Assembly: GCA_944322555.1 (NCBI GenBank)
Contig: CALUPJ010000111.1
Location: forward strand, 1 to 32,348
Direction of reading: 5' to 3'
DNA length: 32,348 bases
Source of the DNA: Candidatus Gastranaerophilales bacterium
Lineage (GTDB): Bacteria; Cyanobacteriota; Vampirovibrionia; Gastranaerophilales; Gastranaerophilaceae
Of this stretch, positions 9,455 through 30,880 are shown in pieces. The notes beneath the pieces were generated by a model. That model searched no databases, was not told the origin of the DNA, and was given only the letters and a program-made list of their open reading frames with translations. Position numbers and translations under genes: made by a program. Every line of letters starts with the position of its first letter. The first letter of the stretch is position 1.

Positions 9455-10234
9455 TTAATAGATTTTTGAGAAAGATATAAAAAATTCGGAAATTACATTG
9501 ATGAGCATCGGCAAAATCCAAATCATAATTGCAGCACCAAAAACAGGTTTAAACAGGAAACTTAATTGGAATACGTTGACCTGTGGAGCGGTTTTTGAAA
9601 TTACACCGAGAATAATATCCTGCCCCAAAGTTGCCAAAAGGACCGGAGACGCTATTTGGAGGCCCATATACAAAACATTTGAAGTAGTTGTTACAAGATA
9701 ATCAATATTAATTATTTTCTCAAGAGGAATACTGACGGCATAAATCGGAAAAATCTCAAAACTTCTTATAAGTGCATTAAACATCCAATAGAACCCGCCG
9801 AGTTCAATAAAAATACATAATCCGAGCAAAGTAATAAGACGGCTCAAAATGGAAGTCTGGCTGTTTGTTGTCGGATCCATAACCATGGCGGAAGAAAGCC
9901 CCATTTGCGTATTAATCATATCTCCGCCCGCTTCAATTGCCAAAATTAAGAGCTGTGCAATATATCCGATTATAGCTCCCGCTGCAAAATTCAACAGTAA
10001 TAAAAGAAGCGGAGAAATATCACCGGGAGGTGCAGCAGGCTTTAGTATCGGTGTAAGCATTAGTGTCAGTAAAAAAGCAAGCGCAAGTTTAACTAAGCCG
10101 GCAATCTCTTTCCTGTTAAATATCGGAGCAAATCTTATAAATCCCAAAAGACGTGCAAAAACTATAAACCCTGCCGAAAACCAGCGTTCAAAATCAGGAA
10201 ACATTATTGCTATTTGAGTTACAAGCTGATCCAT
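9455..10234 (-). CDS. fliR: Flagellar export gate protein FliR
   Basis: This 259-residue polytopic membrane protein is one copy of the FliP5-FliQ4-FliR1 gate through which the flagellar type III apparatus exports subunits. The sequence shows the family pattern: an amphipathic N-terminus, FARLLGFIRFAPIF in the first helix, GAIIGYIAQLLILAIEAGGDMINTQMG-type helix with the conserved G-x-Q-M-G (here in ...NTQMGLS), and a hydrophobic C-terminal third with ISKTAPQVNVFQLSF. The start ATG overlaps the stop of the upstream exported protein by one base (TAATG), and AGGGA lies inside that gene's last codons, so translation is coupled. The operon ends here; flhB, which often follows fliR, is absent. Confidence 0.95.
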   Translation of the reverse strand: MDQLVTQIAIMFPDFERWFSAGFIVFARLLGFIRFAPIFNRKEIAGLVKLALAFLLTLMLTPILKPAAPPGDISPLLLLLLNFAAGAIIGYIAQLLILAIEAGGDMINTQMGLSSAMVMDPTTNSQTSILSRLITLLGLCIFIELGGFYWMFNALIRSFEIFPIYAVSIPLEKIINIDYLVTTTSNVLYMGLQIASPVLLATLGQDIILGVISKTAPQVNVFQLSFLFKPVFGAAIMIWILPMLINVISEFFISFSKIY

Positions 10235-10602
10235 TATTTTCCCTCGCTTAACCCCGGAGGCAAATCAAGTTCATAGTCATAAATCTCCGGCGGCTCATCA
10301 ATTTGTAAAATGTCAAACCCCTCAACAGGGTCTATAACGGTTTTTCCAGGAGTTATTTTGACATTAAATACATATTTATCCTTGCCGTTTTTAATGACAG
10401 AAAACAGTGTCTCACCCTCTTTCAGAGGATGTATAATCAAAGTGTTCCGTTCATTCATAACAGTTATAAGCGGATAAACATCTATAACATCATTTTTTTC
10501 AATACTGATATCTGTCAATTTGCCGTCAGTAGATATTACACAGTCCTCAAATGCCTGTGCGGGAAGAATTATTAAACATAACAAAAGTAAAAATCGTTTC
10601 AT
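10234..10602 (-). CDS. Unrecognised exported protein encoded between fliQ and fliR
   Basis: This 122-residue protein has a clear Sec signal peptide (MKRFLLLLCLIILPAQAF, cleavage likely after AQA). The mature part of about 105 residues reads as beta strands: ISIEKNDVIDVYPL, NTLIIHPLKEGETLFSVI and KYVFNVKITPG. It ends in an acidic, proline-containing tail (EPPEIYDYELDLPPGL). The strand pattern 'constraint, then I-x-P-x-x-x-G-x-T, then strand' resembles the small N-terminal domain of secretin/pilus-assembly proteins (T2SS-T3SS pil_N type). This is a weak resemblance from memory, not a call. Both junctions are 1-base TAATG overlaps (fliQ stop/this ATG; this stop/fliR ATG) with local GGGAG and AGGGA sites. 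The gene is therefore an integral part of the export-gate operon. A periplasmic role near the basal body is inference. Confidence 0.85.
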   Translation of the reverse strand: MKRFLLLLCLIILPAQAFEDCVISTDGKLTDISIEKNDVIDVYPLITVMNERNTLIIHPLKEGETLFSVIKNGKDKYVFNVKITPGKTVIDPVEGFDILQIDEPPEIYDYELDLPPGLSEGK

Positions 10603-11090
10603 TATCTCCCTAACATTTTATTTATCTCTACAAAATTACCCTTTGGCATCGGTGCTTGCGGCGCGGGATCATATTTAATCTTTTGTGCCTTGTCTATATA
10701 AGGAACTTTACCCGGATTTTTCATAATCTCTTTTACGGTTGGGGCATCTTTGAATGAATCATGCATTTCGCCTTCAAACGGAGTTGTATATTTATAATAA
10801 TCCGCAGGCAGAACAAAAGCATCATTTTTAGGTACTGCATTAAATGCGAGAGCTGCTCCCTCCGAGAAAAGATTGGTTAAAAGTTTTATAAATCCCATTC
10901 CGCCTATAATAATAACCAGAAATACCGCAAAAATCTTCGGAGCCGCGGCAATTGTTTGTTCCTGAACCTGAGTGACGGCCTGAATAATACCTACAACCAG
11001 ACCTATAGCTGCCGCTACCAGTACACAAGGCATAGAGATTGCAAGCATTACCATAAATCCTTTTGCTAAATATTCGGTTAACATTTCCAT
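10602..11090 (-). CDS. fliQ: Flagellar export gate protein FliQ with C-terminal extension
   Basis: The first 90 residues are a typical FliQ: two membrane helices (KGFMVMLAISMPCVLVAAAIGLVV-type helix 1 and IFAVFLVIIIGGMGFIKLL helix 2) joined by the conserved GIIQAVTQVQEQTIAAAPK loop that lines the export gate. Known FliQ proteins are about 85-95 residues. This one has 162, adding about 70 polar, proline-rich residues (about 92-162, ending FVEINKMLGR) with no obvious fold. GAGG lies 8 bases before the ATG. It follows fliP after 26 bases and its stop overlaps the next gene by one base. No frameshift is evident; the tail is in frame and not a read-through into another gene. Confidence 0.93.
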   Translation of the reverse strand: MEMLTEYLAKGFMVMLAISMPCVLVAAAIGLVVGIIQAVTQVQEQTIAAAPKIFAVFLVIIIGGMGFIKLLTNLFSEGAALAFNAVPKNDAFVLPADYYKYTTPFEGEMHDSFKDAPTVKEIMKNPGKVPYIDKAQKIKYDPAPQAPMPKGNFVEINKMLGR

Positions 11091-11116
11091 AGCTTATACC
11101 TCAAATTGTTTTCCGG

Positions 11117-11755
11117 TTAGTTGTAACTCTGAACCAGCCCCTGAACGATGAGCGCCCAGCCATCTACGGCTATAAATATCAGAAGCTTGAACGGGAGTGA
11201 AATAATCGTCGGAGATAACATGAACATACCTAATGCAAGCAAAATGTTTGCAACTACAAGGTCAAGTACTATAAACGGAACAAATACAACAAATCCGATT
11301 TCAAATGCCGTTTTAAGTTCGCTTAAAATGAATGCGGGTGCGACTTCCCAGATTGTTATATCTTCCGGAGTTTTAGGCGGTGTCTTATGTTTCAATTCGA
11401 CAAAAAATGCAAGATCACTTTCACGCGTCTGTTTCATCATAAATTCTTTTAAGGGTTTTGAGCCTTCATCAATTGTAGCAATAAGATTTCCCGTTTTCTG
11501 ATACGGAACGGAACCCCTTTCATACATCTGCTGAAAAACCCCGCCCATGGTGTAAAAGGTTAAAATCATACACAAACCTATTGTTACAATTGCGGGTGGA
11601 ACCTGTACACCCATAGCAGTTTTTAGAAGTGAAAATACTATAGTAAATCTTAGAAAACAGGTCATACAGCAAAATACAAACGGCAAAAGCGAAAATAACG
11701 TCATTACCGTCAGCATTTGTAAAACAGGGTTCATATCTTTTATTACCGAATCCAT
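11117..11755 (-). CDS. fliP: Flagellar export gate protein FliP
   Basis: This 212-residue membrane protein forms the pentameric core of the export gate. It aligns well from memory with E. coli FliP: CFLRFTIVFSLLKTAMGVQ, LTFYTMGGVFQQMY, the conserved KEFMMKQTRESDLAFF block before the periplasmic domain, PAFILSELKTAFEIGFVVFVPF and the C-terminal LPFKLLIFIAVDGWALIVQGL. Many FliP proteins carry a cleavable signal peptide before the first conserved segment. This one starts almost directly at MDSVIKDMNPVLQMLTVMTL, so it seems to lack one. The start has AGGATTAGGA upstream. It is preceded by fliO (21-base gap) and followed by fliQ. Confidence 0.96.
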   Translation of the reverse strand: MDSVIKDMNPVLQMLTVMTLFSLLPFVFCCMTCFLRFTIVFSLLKTAMGVQVPPAIVTIGLCMILTFYTMGGVFQQMYERGSVPYQKTGNLIATIDEGSKPLKEFMMKQTRESDLAFFVELKHKTPPKTPEDITIWEVAPAFILSELKTAFEIGFVVFVPFIVLDLVVANILLALGMFMLSPTIISLPFKLLIFIAVDGWALIVQGLVQSYN

Positions 11756-11776
11756 AATTCCTAATCCTCTTTCGGG

Positions 11777-12199
11777 TTAAATTTTTATCTTGTCCGCAAG
11801 ATTTCGCATAACTGATTTTTCCGCATTTTCATGAAGCAGGCTCGATTTTATGCCGATACTTTTTCTGTCCATATAATCGGATTTTTTATTTTCCGGCTTT
11901 GTAAGGCTCTGCATAGTTTCTTTAAATGTTTCCTGTACGGACAAGTTCTCAGAACCTGTTTCAAGCTTTGAAATAAGTGAAGTTTTGTCAACATCACCTG
12001 CAATCAGAAATTTTTCCCTGCCCGTTGATACTATATAAAGAGTCTTTCGCGGAGCCAGCGAAAGCGTATCAATCACTTTCAGACATTTAGAGCTGCGTTT
12101 GCCGCCGGAGGACGATGTACTCTTAAATACAAGAAGAGCAACGGCTATAACTCCGGTCATTGCGAGCGTATATACAATAAAATTTGCTAAATATCCCAT
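11777..12199 (-). CDS. fliO: Flagellar biosynthesis protein FliO
   Basis: This is a 140-residue single-pass membrane protein. One N-terminal helix (ANFIVYTLAMTGVIAVALLVF) is followed by a small beta-rich cytoplasmic domain with the FliO signature LKVIDTLSLAPRKTLYIVSTG and EKFLIAGDV, and then a polar tail. FliO is a scaffold that stabilises FliP during gate assembly. A longer frame starts at a TTG (12226), but ATG 12199 has AGGA at a 7-base spacing and places the membrane helix close to the N-terminus, so I use it. Its position directly before fliP is the conserved order and supports the call despite low sequence conservation of this family. Confidence 0.88.
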   Translation of the reverse strand: MGYLANFIVYTLAMTGVIAVALLVFKSTSSSGGKRSSKCLKVIDTLSLAPRKTLYIVSTGREKFLIAGDVDKTSLISKLETGSENLSVQETFKETMQSLTKPENKKSDYMDRKSIGIKSSLLHENAEKSVMRNLADKIKI

Positions 12200-12270
12200 A
12201 TAAATATCCTCTTTTATCGGTTTCAAAACTTGAACCGCATACTGTTTTTTTAATTACTTTGCGGTTTTCG

Positions 12271-13362
12271 TCAAGCTTCCTGATTATTCTCTACTTCAAA
12301 GTCACTGTAGTCAAAGTCTTCCTGCCCCTCTGCCTGATTATTTTCCTGCACAGGTTGTACAGTTTCTTCCTGCGGAGCGGAATCATTAACCCTTTCTATT
12401 CTTACGCCGAATCTGTCGTTAATAATAACAAGTTCTCCGTCGGCAACTGTTTTTCCGCCGACTTTTAATGAAACTTTGTTATCATAAACCGAACACAAAT
12501 CAACAATAAGACCTTCTTCTATACTCTTCAGCTCTCCCAGAGTCACTTTGACTTTATCAAACTCAGCCGTCATGTCGACTTGAATACTGTCCCACAAGTT
12601 AGCATTTGTATTTTCATCCATACTGTTTCCTCCGCCCGTCTCATAAGGTACTATGATTTTATTATTTGGTTTTATCTGAAATTTTTGTACTATATTTTCG
12701 CATATAAGTGTCATTTCGGAAGAGTTGCTGTTTTCAAACACGACAATATCTCCGATGTCCAGCCTCTTTATATCTGCTACCGGGAATGTTGTGGTTCCTA
12801 ACAGCAAATTGACATCAACGAGGCTGTTTGCAAAATCTTTGTCACTAAACCGCTCTTCTTTCAACTCTATTTCCTGCGGTTTTAAGATGTCTTTGGGAAG
12901 TGATATGATAAATTTTGCGGCGTTGTCGGAAATCTCACTTTTTACAAAATAAGTAAGATGAAGGATTTCTGAATATCTTCTGTGCGGTTCTATAGTAAAA
13001 TTGGGGGCAAGCGATTCATATAAAAAATCATTAAATGCCGTGATTATTCTTGCTTCCAGTTCCGTAACTTCCGTAAGATCAAAGCGTCTGTTATTTTTTC
13101 CCAGAACTTTATCAAGAATAACATTTATAGCTTCCTGGGAAATTCTTATATATACATCATTTTTCGCATTTATTTTCACTTTGGTAACAAAAAAAGTATC
13201 ATTCTGGGCAAGTACATTCATATTGGTGCTGATTGATTCAAGCTTGTATTCAAAACCGTCATAAAAAAATTCGTTGCTGCAACTTTTTACAACCGGTGTG
13301 AATATTGAATCAAACCAGGCAAATTGTTTATATAATTCGTCAAAAAATACGGAATTTATCAT
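12271..13362 (-). CDS. FliM/FliN-type flagellar motor switch protein with two SpoA domains
   Basis: This is a 363-residue C-ring protein. Residues 1-170 look like a degenerate FliM middle/CheC-like domain (YIRISQEAINVILDKVLG, ELEARIITAFNDFLYESLAP). Residues about 182-235 form a first SpoA domain (VDVNLLLGTTTFPVADIKRL, DIGDIVVFE). Residues 258-325 form a clear FliN-type SpoA domain (VKVTLGELKSIEEG, YDNKVSLKVGG, VADGELVIINDRFGVRI). An acidic Gln/Glu-rich tail ends the protein. The N-D-R-x-G-V-R-I motif is diagnostic of FliN. Known FliM ends in one SpoA and FliN is one SpoA; both in one chain recalls SctQ of type III secretion. A strong internal ribosome site precedes Met248 (see that entry). 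It is the first gene of the operon leading to fliO. A separate fliM may exist elsewhere. Confidence 0.88.
   Translation of the reverse strand: MINSVFFDELYKQFAWFDSIFTPVVKSCSNEFFYDGFEYKLESISTNMNVLAQNDTFFVTKVKINAKNDVYIRISQEAINVILDKVLGKNNRRFDLTEVTELEARIITAFNDFLYESLAPNFTIEPHRRYSEILHLTYFVKSEISDNAAKFIISLPKDILKPQEIELKEERFSDKDFANSLVDVNLLLGTTTFPVADIKRLDIGDIVVFENSNSSEMTLICENIVQKFQIKPNNKIIVPYETGGGNSMDENTNANLWDSIQVDMTAEFDKVKVTLGELKSIEEGLIVDLCSVYDNKVSLKVGGKTVADGELVIINDRFGVRIERVNDSAPQEETVQPVQENNQAEGQEDFDYSDFEVENNQEA
12619..12633 (-). promoter_or_regulatory. Internal ribosome-binding site and in-frame ATG inside the FliM/N gene
   Basis: On the minus strand GGAGGA (12633-12628), a 6-base spacer AACAGT and ATG (12621-12619, codon 248) form the best Shine-Dalgarno/start combination in this operon, much better than that of the full-length start. 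The frame is the same as the parent gene. Initiation here would give a 116-residue FliN-like protein (12271-12621) holding only the second SpoA domain and the acidic tail. Confidence 0.7.
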
Positions 13363-17950: not shown

Positions 17951-17978
17951 TATATTGAATAATTGTGCGTGGGGAGAC

Positions 17979-19523
17979 ATGGAAAATAATTATTTTGCAC
18001 TTTTAGCTACTGATGTGAAGAAACTGTGGAGCGGTTTGGACGGGAACCAAAAGCTCGGCATGCTTGCGTTGATTGTTGTCACAATCGTTGCGGCGACGTT
18101 TTTTCTTTCAAAAGCAATGGAGCCCGATTGGGTGGTTTTATACACGGACTTAAATGAAGTTAATGCAACAAGTATCGTCGAAGGGATGAAGAAAAACGGA
18201 TACAGATATAAAGTCTCCGAAGATCATCAGACAATTTTGGTGCCTTCTAATGTCAGAGACGAAATGCGTATATTTGTTGCGGAAAATGACTTAATTAAAA
18301 ATGCGGATACCGGATTTGAGCTGCTTGATGATATGCAGCTCGGTTCTACCGATTTTAAAAACAAGCTGACAAGACAGAGAATTTTTCAGGGTGAGCTTAC
18401 ACGTTCTATTGAAAAAATTCAGGGTATCAGATATGCCAGAGTTCAGCTTGCCGAACCGGAACGCTCAATTTTTGAAGATAATGATGAAAAACCTTCGGCA
18501 TCGGTAGTGCTTGTATTAGAGCCGGGTTATAAAATTAAGAGTGCACAGGTTAAGGCAATAAAAAATCTTGTTGCATATGCAGTGCCGCGTCTGTCACCGG
18601 AGCAGGTGTTTATTACCGATCAGAACGGAAACAGTCTTTCTGACGAAACTTCAAAAAGTTCGACCGATATGGAGAGCTTTAAAACAAATCTTGAAAAAGA
18701 TACTGCCAAAAAGGTTTCCGATGTTTTGGAAAAAATTGTCGGCAAGGGAAATGTATCGGTTCAGGTTAATGCGGATATAGATTTTAATTCCGCAAAATCA
18801 ACCATCGAAAGTTATATTCCCGTTAATGATAAAGGCGAGGGTGTTGTGACTAGTTCACAGACTGAAGTTGAAACTTATGAAAATCCGAATAATGTACCGG
18901 AGCCTAATAATGTTAACCGTAGAAATCTTAATTATTCAAAACAAAAGACTGCGATTAACTACAGCGTATCAAAAGAGGTGAAGCAGGTTGTATATGCTCC
19001 CGGAACGGTTAAGAGACTTTCGATTGCCGTTGCCGTTAACAAAATTCTGACCGAGTCCGAGAAGGAAGAACTTAAAAATCTTGTTCTTTCCGCATCCGGT
19101 GTAGATTATTCAAGAGGAGATGTAATTTCAATTTCCGGACTTCAATTTGAGGGTGCGACAATTGATAAAAAGGCTCAGGAAGATTTTACCAAGCAGTATC
19201 AGCAGGAACAAATGTTCTATTTTATAACATCTTCCGTTATTCCGCTGATTATAGTATTTGTTCTCGGTTGTTTTGCGTTGTATATTCTGAAGAATTTTAT
19301 ATCCAAAATGCCTTCGGCAAGACGCCAGGAACGCAAAATGCAGGAAGAGATTGTTGAAAGGCCTATGGAAGAGGTTGAACCCGAAGAGGATTTACCTAAA
19401 ATAGAAATTAATAAGAAGGAGATAAAGTCCCAGAAGGACCAGAATATTAATGAATTAAATGAAGCAGTTATGGCATCGCCGGAAGAAGCGGCAAAATTGT
19501 TAACATCATTTATAAGAGATTAA
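17979..19523 (+). CDS. fliF: Flagellar M-ring protein FliF
   Basis: This 514-residue inner-membrane protein forms the MS ring, the base on which the export gate and rotor assemble. It has a first membrane helix (about 20-45, LGMLALIVVTIVAATFFL). The YscJ/FliF periplasmic ring-building motifs follow: WVVLYTDLNEVNATSIVEGM, KNADTGFELLD and RQRIFQGELTRSIEKIQGIRYARVQLAEPERS. A low-complexity periplasmic region comes next, then the second membrane helix (about 415-440, FITSSVIPLIIVFVLGCFALYIL) and a cytoplasmic tail that binds FliG. At 514 residues it is slightly shorter than the usual 550. A longer frame from TTG 17955 overlaps the predicted transcription start; ATG 17979 follows GGGGAG, though with a short spacing. 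It is the first gene of the operon. Confidence 0.96.
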   Translation: MENNYFALLATDVKKLWSGLDGNQKLGMLALIVVTIVAATFFLSKAMEPDWVVLYTDLNEVNATSIVEGMKKNGYRYKVSEDHQTILVPSNVRDEMRIFVAENDLIKNADTGFELLDDMQLGSTDFKNKLTRQRIFQGELTRSIEKIQGIRYARVQLAEPERSIFEDNDEKPSASVVLVLEPGYKIKSAQVKAIKNLVAYAVPRLSPEQVFITDQNGNSLSDETSKSSTDMESFKTNLEKDTAKKVSDVLEKIVGKGNVSVQVNADIDFNSAKSTIESYIPVNDKGEGVVTSSQTEVETYENPNNVPEPNNVNRRNLNYSKQKTAINYSVSKEVKQVVYAPGTVKRLSIAVAVNKILTESEKEELKNLVLSASGVDYSRGDVISISGLQFEGATIDKKAQEDFTKQYQQEQMFYFITSSVIPLIIVFVLGCFALYILKNFISKMPSARRQERKMQEEIVERPMEEVEPEEDLPKIEINKKEIKSQKDQNINELNEAVMASPEEAAKLLTSFIRD

Positions 19524-19571
19524 TCGGAAAGGTTGGGAAGAATAAATTATTAAACTTCCAAATATGACACT

Positions 19572-20621
19572 ATGGGTATAGAAGAAATAAAAAAAGCAAA
19601 AGAAGAAGCCAAAAAGACAATAACGCGTCCGAGCCAGAAGGTTGCGGCACTTCTTATTGCGTTAGGGCCTACGACTGCTTCCGAAATTCTAAAGAATATA
19701 AAAGATGAAGATCTTCTTGAGCAGATTACGCTCGACATTGCTAATCTCGGTAAAATATCGGATGAGGATCTCAATGATGTTTTATTGGAATTTAAAACCG
19801 TCTTTCAGGCAAAAAATTATATTGCACAGGGCGGTGTAAGTTATGCTAAACAGCTTTTATCACAAACATACGGTGAGCAGGAAGCGGCTAAACTTCTGGA
19901 AAAAGTTAACTCTATGGTTAACACGAATCCGTTCTACTTTCTGAACGAAGCCGATCCTTCTCAGCTTGCAAATACATTTGCTTCGGAAAATCCGCAGCTT
20001 CTGGCGCTGATTCTTGCATACCTCAGACCGGAACTTTCCGCACAGGTCCTTGCGTTTTTACCGCCTGATGTTCAGGCTGTGGTATCAATGAGAATTGCGG
20101 ATATGACTCCGACAAACCCTGAAATTTTGTCTACCATTGAAGATATTGTAGAACGTAAATTTTCCGCGTTGTTGGTTCAGGATTTCTCAAATGCGGGCGG
20201 TGTTGAATCTCTGGCTAATATTCTTAACTGTTGTGACAGAGGTACCGAAAAGAATATTATGGAATGGCTTGATATTGAAAATCAAAAAATGGCTCAGGAA
20301 GTTCGTGACCTGATGTTCGTATTTGAAGATATTATTATACTTGATGACAGAGCTATTCAGAGACTGCTTAGAGAAATTGATACAAAACAACTTGCTATGG
20401 CTCTTAAAGGTACTAAAGACGAAATTAAAGAAAAAATATTCAAAAATATGTCCGAAAGAGCGAAACAAATGCTTGTCGATGATATGGAATACCTTGGTCC
20501 CGTACGTGCGAAGGAAGTTCAGGAAGCTCAAACGGGTATTGTTAATTCTATCAGAAATCTTGAAGCATCGGGTGAAATTACAATTACACGTGCAAGTATT
20601 GAGGATGAATTAGTTGAGTAG
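19572..20621 (+). CDS. fliG: Flagellar motor switch protein FliG
   Basis: This 349-residue cytoplasmic protein couples FliF to FliM and takes torque from the stator. The N-terminal FliF-binding domain has SQKVAALLIALGPTTASEIL. The middle domain contains ENPQLLALILAYLRPELSAQVLAFLP, in which the usual E-H-P-Q is E-N-P-Q. The C-terminal domain carries the charged torque helix FEDIIILDDRAIQRLLREID and the RAKQMLVDDMEYLGP motif. All core charged residues look intact. There is no clear Shine-Dalgarno sequence before the ATG, 48 bases after fliF, so expression may depend on weak initiation or coupling. Its 3' end overlaps fliH by 8 bases if fliH starts at TTG. Confidence 0.96.
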   Translation: MGIEEIKKAKEEAKKTITRPSQKVAALLIALGPTTASEILKNIKDEDLLEQITLDIANLGKISDEDLNDVLLEFKTVFQAKNYIAQGGVSYAKQLLSQTYGEQEAAKLLEKVNSMVNTNPFYFLNEADPSQLANTFASENPQLLALILAYLRPELSAQVLAFLPPDVQAVVSMRIADMTPTNPEILSTIEDIVERKFSALLVQDFSNAGGVESLANILNCCDRGTEKNIMEWLDIENQKMAQEVRDLMFVFEDIIILDDRAIQRLLREIDTKQLAMALKGTKDEIKEKIFKNMSERAKQMLVDDMEYLGPVRAKEVQEAQTGIVNSIRNLEASGEITITRASIEDELVE

Positions 20622-21372
20622 TAACAGAATTAAAGGTCAGGAAATTCAAATGGGCGACAGTTTTGTTCTGCCAATAGAACAGACGCGTGTGACCAAACAG
20701 CAGGCTAAAGTGCAAAAAATCCTTGAAGAAACCGATGCACAGGCAAAGCAAATTATTGCAGGTGCGGAGAACAAGTCTCAGGTCATTATACAAACGGCCA
20801 ATACAGAAGCTGAAAGAATAATTGAAGAAGCTCAAAAGAAAGCCCAAAAAGAATATGATACAATAAAAAATCAAGCTTATGACGAAGGGTTTAAGAAGGG
20901 CGAACAGGACGGATTATATAAATTTCAAAATGATGCCAGAGAGGGCATCAATTCCCTGGAAACTCTTGCAAGCAGTTCTTTTGATTTGAAAAAAAATATA
21001 ATAGATTCTGCCTCCCGTGATATTGTAGAGCTTGTGAGCGCTATTGCGGATAAAGTTTGTCACCAAAAATTCAATGAAGAAGTTTTGTATCAAATTACGC
21101 TGGATGCGATTAAACAATTAAATGACAAAGAACAGATAACTGTTATTGTTAATCCGAAACTTGTAGAAAATATTAATAATCTTGCCCCCGAATTTAAAAA
21201 TCAAATTCCGAAGCTTCAATCATTAAAGATTTTGGAGGATAATTCGCTTTCACCCGATGGTGTAATTGTGGAAACCCTTAATACAAGATTAGATTCACGG
21301 ATATCATCGCAGATTGCGGAAATTACACAAAATATGTTAACGGGTGCGGATAATGAGTTGGGACAAGAGTAA
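20614..21372 (+). CDS. fliH: Flagellar assembly protein FliH (ATPase regulator/stator)
   Basis: This protein of up to 252 residues binds the FliI ATPase and links it to the C-ring. It has a short N-terminus (IKGQEIQ...SFVLPIEQ) and a long coiled coil rich in Ala, Gln, Glu and Lys (about 35-110, including AERIIEEAQKKAQKEYD and the GFKKGEQDG element). A C-terminal domain related to V/F-ATPase stator subunits follows (ADKVCHQKFNE, ITVIVNP, GVIVETLNTRLDSRISSQI). Two starts are possible. TTG 20614 overlaps fliG and has GAGGA 8 bases upstream. ATG 20650 has AGGA 7 bases upstream and would give 240 residues. I keep the longer one because FliH proteins often begin with a short 'S-x-x-I-K' segment. 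The gene overlaps fliI. Confidence 0.9.
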   Translation: MSSNRIKGQEIQMGDSFVLPIEQTRVTKQQAKVQKILEETDAQAKQIIAGAENKSQVIIQTANTEAERIIEEAQKKAQKEYDTIKNQAYDEGFKKGEQDGLYKFQNDAREGINSLETLASSSFDLKKNIIDSASRDIVELVSAIADKVCHQKFNEEVLYQITLDAIKQLNDKEQITVIVNPKLVENINNLAPEFKNQIPKLQSLKILEDNSLSPDGVIVETLNTRLDSRISSQIAEITQNMLTGADNELGQE

Positions 21373-22678
21373 GTATTTAGATATAATAAAAAATACCCGA
21401 ACCATAAGAGATATCGGAAAAATTACCGAGATTATCGGGCTTACTATTGAATCTGACGGGCCAAAGTCTTCAATAGGTGATTTGTGTTACATATATAACA
21501 ATTATAATGACACTCCTACAATGGCGGAAGTTGTCGGATTTAAAAGCGACAAAATTCTTTTAATGCCTCTGGCTTCTCCTGACGGTATTCATCCGGGTGC
21601 GCTTGTCGTTAATACGGGAAGTGCGATGAAAATAGGTGTCGGGAACCAGCTTATAGGCAGGGTATTAAATGGCTTGGGACAACCTATTGATACTCTGGGC
21701 GAAATAAGTTTTTCCGAATATCGTTCGACTGTTGCAGATGTTATTAATCCGCTGAAACGAAAACGCATTTCAGAGGCTCTGTCATTAGGAATTAAATCTA
21801 TTGACGGTTTTATAACTGTAGGTAAAGGCCAGAGAATGGGTGTTTTTGCCGGCTCAGGTGTCGGAAAGAGCACTACAATAGGTATGATGGCAAAAAATAC
21901 AACCGCAGATTTGAACGTAATAGCACTTATCGGGGAACGCGGACGTGAGGTTAAAGAGTTTATTGAAGAAATCCTCGGGCCGGAGGGTATGAAACGCTCT
22001 ATCGTAATTGCGGCTACTTCAGATCAGCCTTCGCTTGTAAAAATCAAGGCAGCTTTTGTTGCGACATCCATTGCGGAGTATTTTAGAGATAAAGGAATGG
22101 ATGTCTTGTTCATGCTGGACTCCATAACCCGTATTGCCATGGCTCAAAGAGAAGTCGGGCTTGCAATCGGTGAGCCTCCTGCAACGAGAGGCTATACTCC
22201 TTCTGTATTTGCTCTTATGCCCAAACTTATGGAAAGAGCCGGGACAAATGAATTTGGAACTATTACAGGGCTTTATACCGTTCTTGTTGAGGGTGATGAT
22301 TTTAATGAACCGATTTCCGATACGGCAAGAAGTATATTAGACGGTCACATTGTTTTATCAAGAGATTTGGCGCATAAGAATCATTATCCCGCAGTTGATG
22401 TTTTGCAGTCATTAAGCAGAGTTATGGGAGATGTGACAACGAAAGAACACAGAAATGCGGCAGGGATTTTAAGAAATCTTCTTGCCGTACATAAAAAGAA
22501 TGAGGATTTGATTAATATCGGAGCTTATGTTAAAGGTTCTGATGCGTCTTGTGATAAAGCTATTATGATGATGGATGATATTAATAAATTTTTGTTACAA
22601 TCAACTGATGAAAAAATTGAATACGAAGAGACCGTAAATCAGCTTATACAGCTTGCGCAGCTGGCAGGCGGAAGATAA
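21353..22678 (+). CDS. fliI: Flagellum-specific ATP synthase FliI
   Basis: This 441-residue hexameric ATPase, homologous to the F1 beta subunit, energises flagellar export with FliH and FliJ. The Walker A motif is GSGVGKST (about 167-174). GERGREVKEF, Walker B FMLDSITR with RIAMAQREVGLA, GEPPATRGYTPSVF and MLERAG-type residues (here LMERAGTNEFGTITGLYTVLVEGDD) are all in place. The longest frame begins at GTG 21344. ATG 21353 (MSWDKSKYL) is preferred although the upstream GGGTGCGGATA is only a weak ribosome site. The start lies 20 bases inside fliH, so translation is probably coupled. fliJ, which normally follows, is not recognisable. Confidence 0.97.
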   Translation: MSWDKSKYLDIIKNTRTIRDIGKITEIIGLTIESDGPKSSIGDLCYIYNNYNDTPTMAEVVGFKSDKILLMPLASPDGIHPGALVVNTGSAMKIGVGNQLIGRVLNGLGQPIDTLGEISFSEYRSTVADVINPLKRKRISEALSLGIKSIDGFITVGKGQRMGVFAGSGVGKSTTIGMMAKNTTADLNVIALIGERGREVKEFIEEILGPEGMKRSIVIAATSDQPSLVKIKAAFVATSIAEYFRDKGMDVLFMLDSITRIAMAQREVGLAIGEPPATRGYTPSVFALMPKLMERAGTNEFGTITGLYTVLVEGDDFNEPISDTARSILDGHIVLSRDLAHKNHYPAVDVLQSLSRVMGDVTTKEHRNAAGILRNLLAVHKKNEDLINIGAYVKGSDASCDKAIMMMDDINKFLLQSTDEKIEYEETVNQLIQLAQLAGGR

Positions 22679-24912: not shown

Positions 24913-26079
24913 ATGAAATTTAATATAACAAGAAAACAAGCAGGCATTGGTATTTTACTGATTATAATTGTGCCTATTATATATAATAAAATTTCCGGTC
25001 AAATAACCGGTTTTATTCAAAGACAGGCAATGCTTATGCCTAAAGAGGTTGTGGTTGACAATCCGCATACTGAAAAAGTTAATATCTCGGCTGAAGCAAC
25101 AGGGAGGGTAGAAGCTAAATATTCGGTTGACGTTGTTGCAAGGGTTCCGGGGTTTTTAATTAAAAAATATTTTAAAGAAGGCGATTTTGTAAAGAAAGGT
25201 CAATTAATTTTTAAAATAGATCCCAGGGAATACCAGATTGAGGTTAATAATTCACTCGCAAATGTTAATCAATACAGTGCACTGTTAAAAAATGCACAAC
25301 AAGAATTAAACAGGGCAAATGCATTGATAAAAGAAGATTTAATAAGCCGCTCCGATGTGGATCAGAGTCTTGCTACGAGAAATCAAAACAAAGCTCTTTT
25401 GGATGCCGCAAAGCAGCAATATGAACTGGCCAAAGTAAATTTAAGCTACACCGATATAAAATCTCCTATCGACGGACGTATAGGTAAAGTTCAGATTACT
25501 GAGGGTAATTATGTCACTGCAACTTCGGGTTCTCTTGTAAATATATCCAGTACAAATCCGGTGTATCTGGCTTTTAGTCTGAAAGGAGATGATTTTGTCC
25601 GGCTTTTGCAAGCCAGCAATAATTTTAATGATGTAGAAGTCAAGGTTCAGTTTGACAGCGGAGAATGGTATGATGAAACAGGTGTTATTGATTTTGTAGA
25701 CAATAAAATTGATAAAGACTCGGGGACGATAAGCTTGCGTGCTGTTTTTGACAATTCAAAAGGCTGGCTGGTTCCGGGCAATTACATGAAAGTTAAACTG
25801 ACTGCACCGAAAATAGTTGATTATATGGTAGTTCCGCAATCCTGTACAAAAGGCGATCCGATGAGCGGTTATTATGTATGGACTGTTAAAGATAATAAGG
25901 CCGTTCGTAAAGACATTGAAGTTTCAAACAGCGTAAACAATAACTGGATAGTAGAAAGCGGCTTGAACTTTAGTGATGTGGTCGTTGTTGCGGGGATACA
26001 AAATGTTTCCGCAGAAGGTCAAAAGCTGAAAATTATTGATAATGAAGATTACGTTAAAAATCTGAATGCGGGTAAATAG
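24913..26079 (+). CDS. RND efflux pump periplasmic adaptor (membrane fusion protein)
   Basis: This 388-residue AcrA/MexA-type adaptor bridges the inner-membrane pump and the outer-membrane channel. An N-terminal membrane anchor (about 9-26) lacks a lipobox Cys, so it is not a lipoprotein. The lipoyl/barrel-sandwich halves are visible around [31 protein letters not shown] (about 75-105) and [23 protein letters not shown] (about 180-205). A helical hairpin with heptads lies between them (about 110-175), followed by the beta-barrel and membrane-proximal domains ([29 protein letters not shown]). It is the first gene of a three-gene unit, 8 bases before the permease. The exported compound (drug, bile acid or lipid) cannot be told. 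Confidence 0.93.
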
Positions 26080-26087
26080 GATATATA

Positions 26088-29000
26088 ATGAAAAAGATTT
26101 TTGATAAAGAAAAATTATACTTTTTTATAAGAAAGCCGAGATTTGCACTGGTAATATCAGTATGTATAGTCATTATGGGTTTAATTTCAATGGCGACATT
26201 GAAACAGGAAAACTATCCCGACGTTACGCCGCCTCAGGTAAGAGTGTCCGCATCATATACGGGGGCGAATGCCGAGGTTATTGAATCATCAATTGCTACG
26301 GTTTTGGAAAATAAGCTGAACGGTGTAGAAAATCTTTCTTATATGACATCCACTTCTTATGACGGTTCGTATTCATTAACAATGTATTTTAAAGTCGGAA
26401 CGGACAAAAACGTAAACCTGATGAACGTACAAAACAGAATACAGCAGGTATTATCACAACTGCCTGAAGAAGTTCAAAGAACGGGTGTAACTGCTTTGAG
26501 CAGAACATCAGGCTCGGGAGCATTGATATTAAATATTATGCCGCTTACGGATAATTGGACACAGCTTAATATGACGAATTACGGTTCAATTTATATTAAA
26601 GATGAACTGAAACGTGTTGAAGGAGTTGCTGACATTGATGTATACGGTTCGGGTGACTATTCTATGCGAATTTGGCTTGATCCGCAAAAAATGGCCGGAC
26701 TTAATATTTCCACAACAGAAGTTAAAAATGCCGTTATAAGTCAAAATACACAGGTAACCGCAGGTTCTCTGGGTGCTCTGCCTACGGATGATGAGCAGGC
26801 ATTGCAGCTTACATTAAAGTCAAAAGGAAGATTATCCGATGTAGAAGAGTTTGAAAATATAATAATCCGCTCAAATATGGACGGAAGTAAAGTAAGGTTG
26901 AAAGATATTGCCCGTGTTGAACTCGGTGCAGTTTCATACTCAAACTTAGGTACCGTAAACGGTAAGCCTGCCGCTCTGATTATGGTTTCGCAGTTATCTG
27001 ACGCAAACATTTTGAATCTGTCAAAAGCAGTAAAGCAAAAAATCCAGGAAATAAATTCAAGGCTGGATAACGGGCTTAAAATTCAGATTATAAAAGATGA
27101 TTCCGATTATATCCATGAATCAATGAAGGAAGTTGAATTTACAATTCTGCTTACTGCCGTAATAGTTATAATAATTATTTTCCTTTTTCTTGGCGATGCT
27201 ATGGCAACATTGGTTCCGTGTGTTACAATTCCTGTTTCATTGATAGGGACTTTTATTGCACTAAAAGCCCTGAATATGAGTATTAACCTGTTGTCACTGT
27301 TTGCTCTGGTTCTTGCGGTCGGTGTTGTAGTAGATGATGCAATTGTTGTTATAGAAAACGTAAAACGCCATCTTGAGGAAGGTAAAACGGCAGTTATTGC
27401 GACACAGCTTACAATGGAAGAAGTGGGTTCTTCTCTGGTTGCAATGGCTATGGTATTAATGGCTGTATTTGTACCTATTATATTTATGGGCGGAATGACG
27501 GGAGTTATGTATAAACAGTTTGCCGTTTGTATTGCCGTATCCATTGCCATTTCGGCAATATGTGCTCTGACGCTTTCACCAGCAATGTGCTCACACTTTC
27601 TCGGAAAACATGAACATAAGGCGGGAAAATTAGATAAACTGCCGTTTTATGATGAAATTAACGGTCTGTTTGAAACAATTAAATACAGAACATCTATAAT
27701 AATAGAAGATTTTAACAAATTTTTTGCTAAAGCTGAAGATATTTATATTGAATACGAAAACAAATTTGTACATGATAAAAAATCTGCAATAGTGCTTTAT
27801 TTATCACTCGTAGTACTTACGCTTGCCTGCTTTAAAATAATACCTACAGGTTTTATCCCTGATGAAGACCAGGGTGTATTGCTTGCAAGTATAACGCTTC
27901 CTGATGGAGCTTCGCTCTCAAGAACAGAAGAGGTCGGAATGAGGCTTATAGAACAGGTTAGAAATCTTGAGGGAGTAGATGAAGAGAGATTGATGCTTTT
28001 CGGCGGAAATGGGGCTACTAATACTGCTACGGCTATTATATCTCTTGACGATTATGCGGACAGAAAAGTTGCAGGTTTTAACTGGATAAAAAGAAAGCTG
28101 ACCGGACGCCCGACAAACCTTTCTCACACGGCAATACTTAACAGAATAAGAGCAATTGCATCCAATACAAAAGAAGCTTCAATTGTTGTATTCTCTCCGC
28201 CTGCTATCAGCGGTATGAGTATGCTCGGCGGATTTGAGTTTCAAATGCTTTCAAAAGGCGAATATACTCCGCAGGAACTTGAAACGTGGGCAAACAAACT
28301 TATACAAGCCGCAAATCAGAATCCGGCCCTTTCAAGTGTTTATACTAACTTTCAGGCAAATGTTCCGCAGTATACCGTTGAAATTGATTATGAGAAGGCT
28401 TTGGCACAAAGTATTGATTTGCAGGAACTTTATTCTACACTCGCCTCAATGCTCGGAACTTATTATATTAATGATTTTAATAAGTATGACAGAGTGTTTA
28501 AAGTTCAAATGCAGGCAGAAAGTCAATTTAGGAATACGGCAACAGATTTGTCGGGAATATACGTAAAAAATACAAATGGTGTAATGGTTCCGATACTTTC
28601 CGTAATAAAACTTAAACAAACTATCGGTACGGCATCTATTTCGAGATACAACCTGTATAAGTCGGTGCAAATTCAGGGGCAGGAAGCGGCAGGCAAAAGT
28701 TCGGGAGACGCTATGAAAGCTATGGAAAGCGTAGCAAGACAAGTACTGCCTTCCGATATAGGTTATGACTGGTCAGGAACTTCCGCTCAGGAGAGAGAAG
28801 CCTCCGGTCAGACTGCAATTATTGTTGCAATGGCATTAATATTTGTGTATCTGTTTCTTGTTGCCCTATACGAAAGCTTTACAATTCCGATTGCGGTACT
28901 TTTAATTTCGCCGATTGCGGCACTCGGAGCCTTGATTTTCCAAATGATGATTAACCAATCCTTTGACATATATTCACAGGTTGGTATGATTACGTTAATC

Positions 29001-29351
29001 GGACTTGCAGCAAAACAATCCATTTTAATTGTTGAGTTTGCAAAGGAAGAACACGAAAAACACGGACTTCCTGTTAAAGAAGCTGCTGTTAAAGCGGCTA
29101 AATTGAGATTCAGAGCTATTATGATGACCGAACTTGCATTTGTTCTCGGAGTTATGCCGATGCTTTTTGCAGTCGGGGCCGGTGCAAATTCAAGAATCTC
29201 CGTCGGTTCAACAGTTTTTGGCGGTATGATAGCGGCTGCAACAATTGGTGCGGTTCTCACTCCCGCTTTTTATGTAATTATTCAGGAATTTGTCGATAAA
29301 TTTCCAAAACAAGACATAACCGAAAAAGATTTGGAGATTGAAGAAAAATGA
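26088..29351 (+). CDS. RND family efflux permease (HAE1/AcrB type)
   Basis: This 1087-residue trimeric, proton-driven inner-membrane exporter has the duplicated RND plan. Helix 1 (about 18-36) ends in [10 protein letters not shown], and a first periplasmic loop holds porter domains. Helices 2-6 carry the proton-relay pair Asp416-Asp417 in [17 protein letters not shown]. The second half repeats this after [26 protein letters not shown]. The C-terminal helices contain [20 protein letters not shown] and [13 protein letters not shown]. It is about 40 residues longer than AcrB. The extra length is a charged cytoplasmic segment between helices 6 and 7 (about 505-570, from [13 protein letters not shown] to [11 protein letters not shown]). 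Class HAE1 implies hydrophobic or amphiphilic substrates. The last codon overlaps the channel gene (ATGA). Confidence 0.95.
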
Positions 29352-30880
29352 AAAAGTTAAAAAGGTTTATAAATACATTTTTAATCTGTTCGCTAATATC
29401 ACTCTGCGGGACCTATACCGCGGCTAAGGAAAAGGGGGAAGTCCCGTTGAATTATATTGCGAAAAAAGATGAACAGGTTCATATTGTTAAACCGGAAAAG
29501 AAAAAGAAAATAAATCTCAGACGCCAGAGAAAGCAAAATATCGAAAATGCCAAAACAAAGGTCGAAACTTCCAAAGAAGCAGAAGGAATGTATGAAACAA
29601 AATTCCCTACAATTAACAGTAAAATAGAATATGCTGATATGAACGGAGAAGTAACTCTTAGTGATTGTATAAAACTTGCAATTACGCATCATCCCGCAAT
29701 CATGTCTGCTATAAGTAATGCTGAAATTTATAAATCAAGAGTCGGGCAGGCCTGGTCAAACTACTTTCCTACAATAAATGCCGGAGTTAATTATTCAAGA
29801 AATGATATGTTCATGACAATGTCCAGTGCATATATGAGAATGATGAGTCAGAAATATAATATGTATTATATGCCTCAAATTTCGGCGGATTTGCTTTTAT
29901 TTGATTTTGGTAAAACCAAATCAATGGCAGACTATGCAAAGAGAAGTTATGAAGCTTCAAGATATGATGCCGAAACCAGTATTGAACTTGTTATATATAA
30001 CGTGAAAGTTGCATACTATAACCTCGTTTTTGCTAAAATTCAGAAAACAGTCTACGAAGATACCGTAAAAGACTTTGAATTACAGTTAAAACAGGCAAGG
30101 GCACAATATGAAATAGGAAGAAAGGCTAAAATTGACGTTACAACAGCGGAATATAACCTGGGTAATGCAAAAGTAAATCTTATTAAGGCAAAAAATACAA
30201 TGGAACTTGCAGCGGCAGAGCTTGCGAATGCCGTCGGTATTCCTGAATTGGAAAATGTTATTTTAAAAGATGAATTGAACAGCAAAAAATACGATGTAAA
30301 TTTTAAAGACTTGCTTGCTACGGCTGAAGCTTCCCGCCCTGCATTGCTTTCTGCCAAAAAACAAATGGATGCGGCAGAAATGAATGTCAGAAGTGCAAAA
30401 AGAGCGTTTACGCCGGATATTAGTGCTTTCGGCTCCTATAGTCAGGGGGGACGTCAAATCGATGCGGATTACGGATATCAGGTAGGTGTTCAACTAAACT
30501 ATACGGCATTAAATCTTATGCTTTTGAAAAAACAAGTTGATGAAATGACTGCTGCTTATAAAAAGGCGGTTGCGGATTACGAACAGCAAAGGCAAAATGT
30601 TTATCTTGAAGTAAAGAGTGCATATATAAGCCTCTTGAATTCCCACGACAGTTTAGGGGTTTCGAAGTTGGCTCTTCAGCAGGCAAAAGAACGCCAATAT
30701 CAGGCTTTTAGACGGTATCAGGTCGGATTGGGAGATGCAATAGAATTTAAGGATGCGGAAAATTCATACTTGAATGCTCAGCTTGATTATTATTCAAATC
30801 TCCTAAACTACAATATCAATGCGGCTGAAATTGAGCGTGTAATCGGTGCACCAATAAAAGAATCTGATATAGATTTATAA
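29348..30880 (+). CDS. TolC family outer-membrane efflux protein
   Basis: This 510-residue outer-membrane factor completes the tripartite pump. A signal peptide ([26 protein letters not shown]) is followed by an unusual, very basic stretch (about 45-75, [21 protein letters not shown] in part) before the first conserved OEP segment [20 protein letters not shown] (about 100-120). Two tandem OEP repeats follow. Each has long Ala/Gln/Lys-rich coiled helices ([27 protein letters not shown]-type; second repeat with [19 protein letters not shown] and [20 protein letters not shown]) and short beta segments ([22 protein letters not shown]). Translation is coupled to the permease by a 4-base ATGA overlap. 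No obvious terminator follows. Confidence 0.93.

Follow-up and report, generated by a model that had tools for sequence, protein, structure and literature searches.

Does a single gene of a gut bacterium supply two different subunits to one machine, and if so, to which machine? The question is raised by a 32,348-nucleotide stretch of DNA (hereafter the window) from Candidatus Gastranaerophilales bacterium, a gut bacterium of a non-photosynthetic cyanobacterial lineage. Within the window lies a sctQ-like gene with two SpoA domains, and in the linker between them sits an in-frame ATG preceded by a strong Shine-Dalgarno (SD) sequence. Comparison across the order Gastranaerophilales indicates that this internal start is under selection, and assigns the gene to a second type III system (system 2) rather than to the flagellum. 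Genome positions are given in window coordinates, and the gene and its operon read on the − strand; lengths of proteins are in amino acids (aa). The features concerned are these:

12271..13362, − strand: sctQ-like gene, 363 aa, a natural FliM-FliN fusion composed of a CheC/FliM-middle-like domain, SpoA1 and SpoA2 (open reading frame, two Pfam FliMN_C matches, fold match).
12628..12633, − strand: internal SD, GGAGGA (sequence; orthologue conservation).
12619..12621, − strand: internal ATG start, codon 248 (ATG in 90/98 and GTG in 6/98 orthologues).
12271..12621, − strand: product of 116 aa predicted from the conserved internal start, SpoA2 (FliN/SctQ-C-like).

On the − strand the site reads ...GAGACGGGC GGAGGA AACAGT ATG GAT GAA AAT..., with 6 nucleotides between the SD and the ATG, and Pfam places codon 248 in the linker between the two SpoA domains. 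The duplex energy of the internal SD is −9.5 kcal/mol vs −4.0 kcal/mol for that of the annotated start, which is of the AGGG type. An earlier reading of the bare sequence (the original prediction) had reported the GGAGGA, the 6-base gap, the in-frame ATG and the 116-residue C-terminal SpoA fragment exactly as they stand; its placing of the ATG ahead of the second SpoA domain agrees with the Pfam positions, and it had rightly called the full-length start weak.

The site recurs throughout the order. In a set of 98 orthologous genes from 44 genera and six families, from which one duplicate genome had been removed and in which identity falls to about 30 %, a start codon is found in the linker of 96 genes, 5 to 12 codons upstream of a conserved Trp-Asp. 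When SD strength is taken as duplex energy (strong, ≤ −8 kcal/mol; looser, ≤ −6 kcal/mol), 91 of the 98 orthologues reach the looser threshold and 82 the strong one; among 503 control in-frame ATGs from the same genes, 4.2 % reach −6 kcal/mol and none reaches −8 kcal/mol. The original prediction had named loss of the site in relatives that keep the protein as evidence against it, and this is not what is seen: a site at ≤ −6 kcal/mol is present in 41 of the 44 genera, and a single genus lacks one altogether. A separate scan of public loci, the content of which overlaps the orthologue set, gave strong sites in 79 of 80, the remaining one not having been evaluated. In four species of the window's own genus (L031-L034) the site has shifted, with a new ATG four codons downstream and an SD formed by the codons ATG GAG GAT/GAA.

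The reading favoured here, which we consider likely, is that the window gene encodes a SctQ-type C-ring or sorting-platform scaffold of a second type III machine, and that two products are translated from it. In SctQ, SpoA2 fragments from an internal start dimerize and associate with the full-length protein, and the ATPase regulator is bound by the SpoA pair (PMC4443714, PMC4832279); HrcQ offers a precedent for an internal start of the SctQ type (PMC8553256). The full-length product of 363 aa would likewise comprise the FliM-middle-like domain, SpoA1 and SpoA2, and the second, of 116 aa and started from the internal GGAGGA/ATG, would consist of SpoA2 only. By analogy with SctQ, the fragment would dimerize and join the full-length protein in a ratio of 1 full-length to 2 fragments, and the assembly would form pods or a ring beneath the export gate, holding FliH2-FliI2. 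Since the internal SD is strong and the primary one weak, the fragment would be made in the excess that a 1 : 2 stoichiometry requires. The machine comprises FliF2, FliE2, the rod proteins FlgB/C/F/G2, a lytic transglycosylase, FlhA2/FlhB2 and FliO/P/Q/R2, with no FliG, hook or filament; because these last three are missing, system 2 probably exports proteins rather than rotating. What we infer in this scheme is that the fragment is made, in what ratio and with which partners it binds, and that the machine secretes. An alternative accepts internal initiation as real and has the fragment act mainly outside the ring, as a stabilizer of the full-length protein or as part of a cytosolic shuttle; we regard it as unlikely.

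A different view of the linker is that its Gly-Gly...Met is kept for the sake of the protein, as a flexible hinge, and that its resemblance to an SD and start is incidental. About 58 of the 98 orthologues do have Gly-Gly ahead of the start residue, and the sister order has the linker Met without a strong SD. However, the SD is formed by the codons of Gly-Gly, Glu-Gly (EGE), Glu-Glu, Met-Glu-Asp, Lys-Glu-Asp, EV and other residues, in two codon phases, within a linker that is hypervariable in both length and sequence, and the spacing from SD to start is largely held (one value in 53/95) despite the shifting position and codon phase. Synonymous choice, moreover, exceeds what the protein needs. 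With the proteins fixed and codons drawn from pooled usage in 200 runs, 50.7 ± 3.6 strong sites are expected (maximum 60), against the 82 observed, and the conservation beyond codon requirements that the original prediction had proposed to look for is thereby borne out. Where the SD is of the Gly-Gly type, the first Gly codon is GGA in 56 of 58 genes (background, 34 %), and wherever the full-length frame reads Val at the start position, the codon is GTG, in 6 of 6 genes (background, 9.5 %). Apart from this, synonymous sites are saturated, with a synonymous rate (dS) of 1.7-4.2 within the genus and a ratio of non-synonymous to synonymous rates (dN/dS) of 0.03-0.06 for the window gene. The hinge explanation is left quite improbable, and a chance origin of SD and ATG is ruled out by the control ATGs and the synonymous shuffles. 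Across the sequences compared, the start site is conserved in Gastranaerophilales and is under selection, and one reading frame very probably gives rise to two proteins through it.

Several observations weigh against this two-product reading. The null tests count related genomes as independent, and the genus without any internal site, g18 (L089, L090), has to be set beside g22 and g26, the sites of which are weak (−5.1 to −5.7 kcal/mol). The five genomes of the sister order (f8), which have a two-SpoA gene in the same operon, keep the linker Met, but their SD is weak or absent, so that the strong signal is established for one order only. Additionally, the SpoA half of the AlphaFold2 model is of low confidence. 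Replacement of the g18 site by an extra 99-aa SpoA gene present in that genus was considered and found unsupported: g17 (G120) has such a gene, near a long axial protein, yet keeps its internal site. Flagellated members of g17 (G120, G136, G093) and g18 (G091, G157) were seen to carry additional SpoA proteins, some of them stand-alone and about 99-109 aa long.

What kind of protein, then, is encoded? Its domains are:

12868..13350, − strand: CheC/FliM-middle-like N-terminal domain, residues about 5-165 (AlphaFold2 and VIA-align).
12691..12822, − strand: SpoA1 domain, in the FliM_C position (PF01052, 25.2 bits).
12388..12591, − strand: SpoA2 domain (PF01052, FliMN_C, 58 bits).

The N-terminal domain is modelled by AlphaFold2 with reasonable confidence (blocks mostly at a predicted local distance difference test of 59-87), and in VIA-align it has the fold of the FliM middle domain and CheC, matching 4gc8_B (Z 12.4, 144 aligned, root-mean-square deviation 3.7) and 1xkr (Z 12.4, 159 aligned, deviation 3.8). 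The closest entry in PDB by sequence is a FliM::FliN fusion, 4yxb, and the window gene is therefore a natural FliM-FliN fusion, beginning at the CheC-like domain and having the layout of SctQ. It passes none of the curated cut-offs for SctQ, FliM or FliN, scoring 59.7 bits on the SctQ/SpaO_YscQ model TIGR02551 (cut-off 100.8), 30.8 on the FliM model TIGR01397 (cut-off 219.6) and 63.9 on the FliN model TIGR02480 (cut-off 84.05). The two C-terminal tandem SpoA domains characteristic of SctQ are present (PF01052 twice), as is, in the predicted structure matching 4gc8_B, the CheC-like middle domain characteristic of FliM. As in SctQ (YscQ, SpaO, Spa33, SsaQ, HrcQ), there is a tandem SpoA pair, one gene would supply both forms, and a predicted start, ATG or GTG, in the linker before SpoA2 would yield a C-terminal SpoA fragment; unlike SctQ, the window protein falls under the SctQ cut-off and has a CheC/FliM-middle-like N-terminal domain. 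With FliM plus FliN, and with engineered FliM::FliN fusions, it shares the succession of CheC-like middle domain, SpoA and SpoA, the FliM fold match and the likeness to 4yxb, but its system uses one gene rather than two, the flagellum has a fliM and fliN of its own, and genomes with system 2 only have no FliG or flagellin. The gene has the build of SctQ and probably also its way of working.

Which machine the gene serves is a separate matter, for the original prediction had taken it to be a flagellar gene supplying FliN to the flagellum. That it is an extra C-ring protein of the flagellum would suit its position, about 4.6 kb from the flagellar fliF-G-H-I in the window, and its retention by flagellated species. 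However, a genome search of the kind first proposed turned up a separate fliL-fliM-fliN operon in the source genome, on contig C86. In a FliP tree, midpoint-rooted and without an injectisome outgroup, the FliP encoded beside the window gene falls within a non-flagellar set, split from the flagellar FliP of the same genome with support of 100/100, and the FliP set of the sister order groups with the non-flagellar one. A flagellar setting of the window gene is therefore rejected. Furthermore, in G144 the gene lies >100 kb from the flagellar fliF, and it belongs to a flagellum-independent export set found also in genomes without flagellin, FliG, FliM and FliN. Of the original interpretation, internal initiation finds strong support, and the analogy with SctQ (YscQ/SpaO) is apt; the supply of FliN to the flagellum has to be given up, and the extra C-ring protein, largely refuted, is a most improbable explanation.

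System 2 is universal in the order and separate from the flagellum, as judged from 78 genomes (45 genera), a 24-genome subset of them, 286 genomes for the two-SpoA gene and 38 non-flagellated genomes for FliG. FliF, FlhA and FliP are present in 78/78 genomes in two distinct score classes, the flagellar class accompanying flagellin, which occurs in 38; the 40 genomes with no Flagellin_N all have the system-2 FliF, FlhA and FliP. Within the subset, FlhB and FliI are single in non-flagellated and double in flagellated genomes, one weak extra FlhB match aside, and FlhB2, FliI2 and the rod proteins were found in 24/24 genomes checked. FliG (FliG_C), with which FliM works in the switch complex, is in none of the 38 non-flagellated genomes tested that carry system 2, and FliM/FliN and flagellin are absent from genomes with only the second set. 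The two-SpoA gene is present in 284 of the 286 genomes, and its lack from G174 and G258 is probably a matter of assembly, because in both fliP2 lies at a contig end. Published genomes with 'incomplete flagella' were read as carrying a decaying flagellar remnant (PMC3787301, PMC4040986), which would give the start site little weight; for the second set this is barely credible, being contradicted by the presence of both sets in flagellated genomes, by core genes in every one of the 78 genomes, by conserved operons and by the low dN/dS of the window gene.

The anatomy of system 2 is best seen in the non-flagellated genome G109, where one operon runs flgF-flgG-flgB-flgC-SLT lytic transglycosylase-fliE-fliF-(330 aa protein)-fliH-flhA-fliI, and sctQ-fliO-P-Q-x-R and flhB are located away from it. 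The same clusters are found again, in some cases split, in the other genomes looked at, and the source genome is among them (C50, C37, C60, C15, C53). Rod proteins, FliE, the MS ring and the export gate are present; no hook (long FlgE) or hook-associated proteins were found in those of the 24 panel genomes that lack flagella, the PF06429 matches of which lie in frames of about 143-164 and 232-270 aa, short rod-type only. In contrast to injectisomes, system 2 has FliE, an FlgB/C/F/G rod and a long FliF, and its export proteins favour flagellar models: FlhA2 scores 700 bits on the FlhA model vs 589 on SctV, and FliP2, FliR2, FliI2 and FliF2 likewise score higher on theirs. The protein of 330-349 aa between fliF2 and fliH2 was considered as FliG, but hhalign gives it a probability of 35.8 % and no Pfam match exceeds the cut-off, and it is therefore not called FliG. 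On balance, it is reasonably probable that Gastranaerophilales and their sister order share a universal, unrecognized class of type III machine, i.e., a rod-bearing basal body devoid of hook, filament and FliG, the C-ring of which is a natural one-gene FliM-FliN fusion providing its own FliN through internal initiation. Such a machine would have been taken so far for an incomplete flagellum, and it may serve to deliver proteins in the gut of animals.

Near fliE2-fliF2-x-fliH2-flhA2, several non-flagellated genomes encode a protein of 320-530 aa (MGMAASQARYLGLTARKTN...) with a coiled-coil-like C terminus, and in the same neighbourhood there are helical proteins of 272, 90 and 108 aa with similar ends. 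None of these belongs to a Pfam family; they are candidates for axial or needle-like proteins exported by system 2.

L037 560-3457, L039 1585-4202, L041 14856-17737, L045 276-3574: loci of the 320-530-, 272-, 90- and 108-aa proteins.

FliH2 has a basic motif, QRQERRxGxRRRGYRR..DRN.ISRA, ahead of its coiled coil (L048 6859-7635, L039 12260-12961, L124 10823-11608). In the flhB2 region of the non-flagellated G018, a FlgE/F/G-like protein of 278 aa (LlgE_F_G_D1; L118 15742-16578) may serve system 2 as a cap or short hook.

Di Rienzi 2013 (MEL.A1) and Soo 2014 treated a 'subset of flagella genes' in Melainabacteria as a flagellum or a reduction of one (PMC3787301, PMC4040986). The MEL-COG list of the former holds 13 'flagellum-related' genes, including the run flgG, flgG, flgC, fliF, fliH, flhA, fliI as well as fliP, fliQ and fliR (PMC3787301); the gene order matches system 2, but what was described as a subset is here a separate, intact and universal second system. 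Searches of titles and passages in the open-access literature, which lacks most subscription papers, turned up no account of a type III system for Melainabacteria, Gastranaerophilales or Vampirovibrio. For Thermotoga maritima fliY, internal initiation giving a FliN-like product, FliN*, has been suggested on preliminary evidence (PMC4832279). The likeness lies in a FliN-like fragment made by internal initiation from a flagellar relative, and the difference in that fliY is a flagellar gene, whereas the start described here is conserved order-wide in a non-flagellar system. Internal initiation as such is already known; what is new is that a whole order has kept it in an apparatus of the flagellum type that is not a flagellum. 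Comparative evidence places the two-products-from-one-gene device of injectisome SctQ in a flagellum-type apparatus too, bridging FliM plus FliN and SctQ. The 'incomplete flagella' of gut Melainabacteria can be re-read as a second secretion machine that is intact and has been retained in every species, so that what system 2 exports and what it does in the gut can be tested directly; counts of flagellar genes in Gastranaerophilales should be used with caution, as they mix two systems.

Downstream of the sctQ-like gene, its operon continues as follows:

11777..12226, − strand: fliO2 (PF04347, 34 bits; 51 % to fliO2 of the non-flagellated G018).
11117..11755, − strand: fliP2 (system-2 clade of the FliP tree).
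10602..11090, − strand: fliQ2, 162 aa (TIGR01402, 56 bits; 73 % to G018).
10234..10602, − strand: 'x', a conserved 122-aa protein between fliQ2 and fliR2 (signal-peptide-like N terminus; position conserved in relatives).
9455..10234, − strand: fliR2 (TIGR01400, 150.5 bits; 63 % to G018).

With sctQ-fliO-P-Q-x-R of system 2 at 9455-13362 and the flagellar fliF-G-H-I at 17955-22678, the window carries parts of two systems. Protein 'x' has no family match at cut-off, and its orthologue in L036 shows a weak likeness to T2SS-T3SS_pil_N, a pilus/secretin N-terminal domain (E 0.12). FliQ2 has a C-terminal extension and is about twice as long as the FliQ model (88 positions). Elsewhere in the window, at 24913-30880, a membrane-fusion protein, a resistance-nodulation-division (RND) pump and a TolC-like outer membrane protein stand in a row and, by the look of their sequences, form an efflux system.
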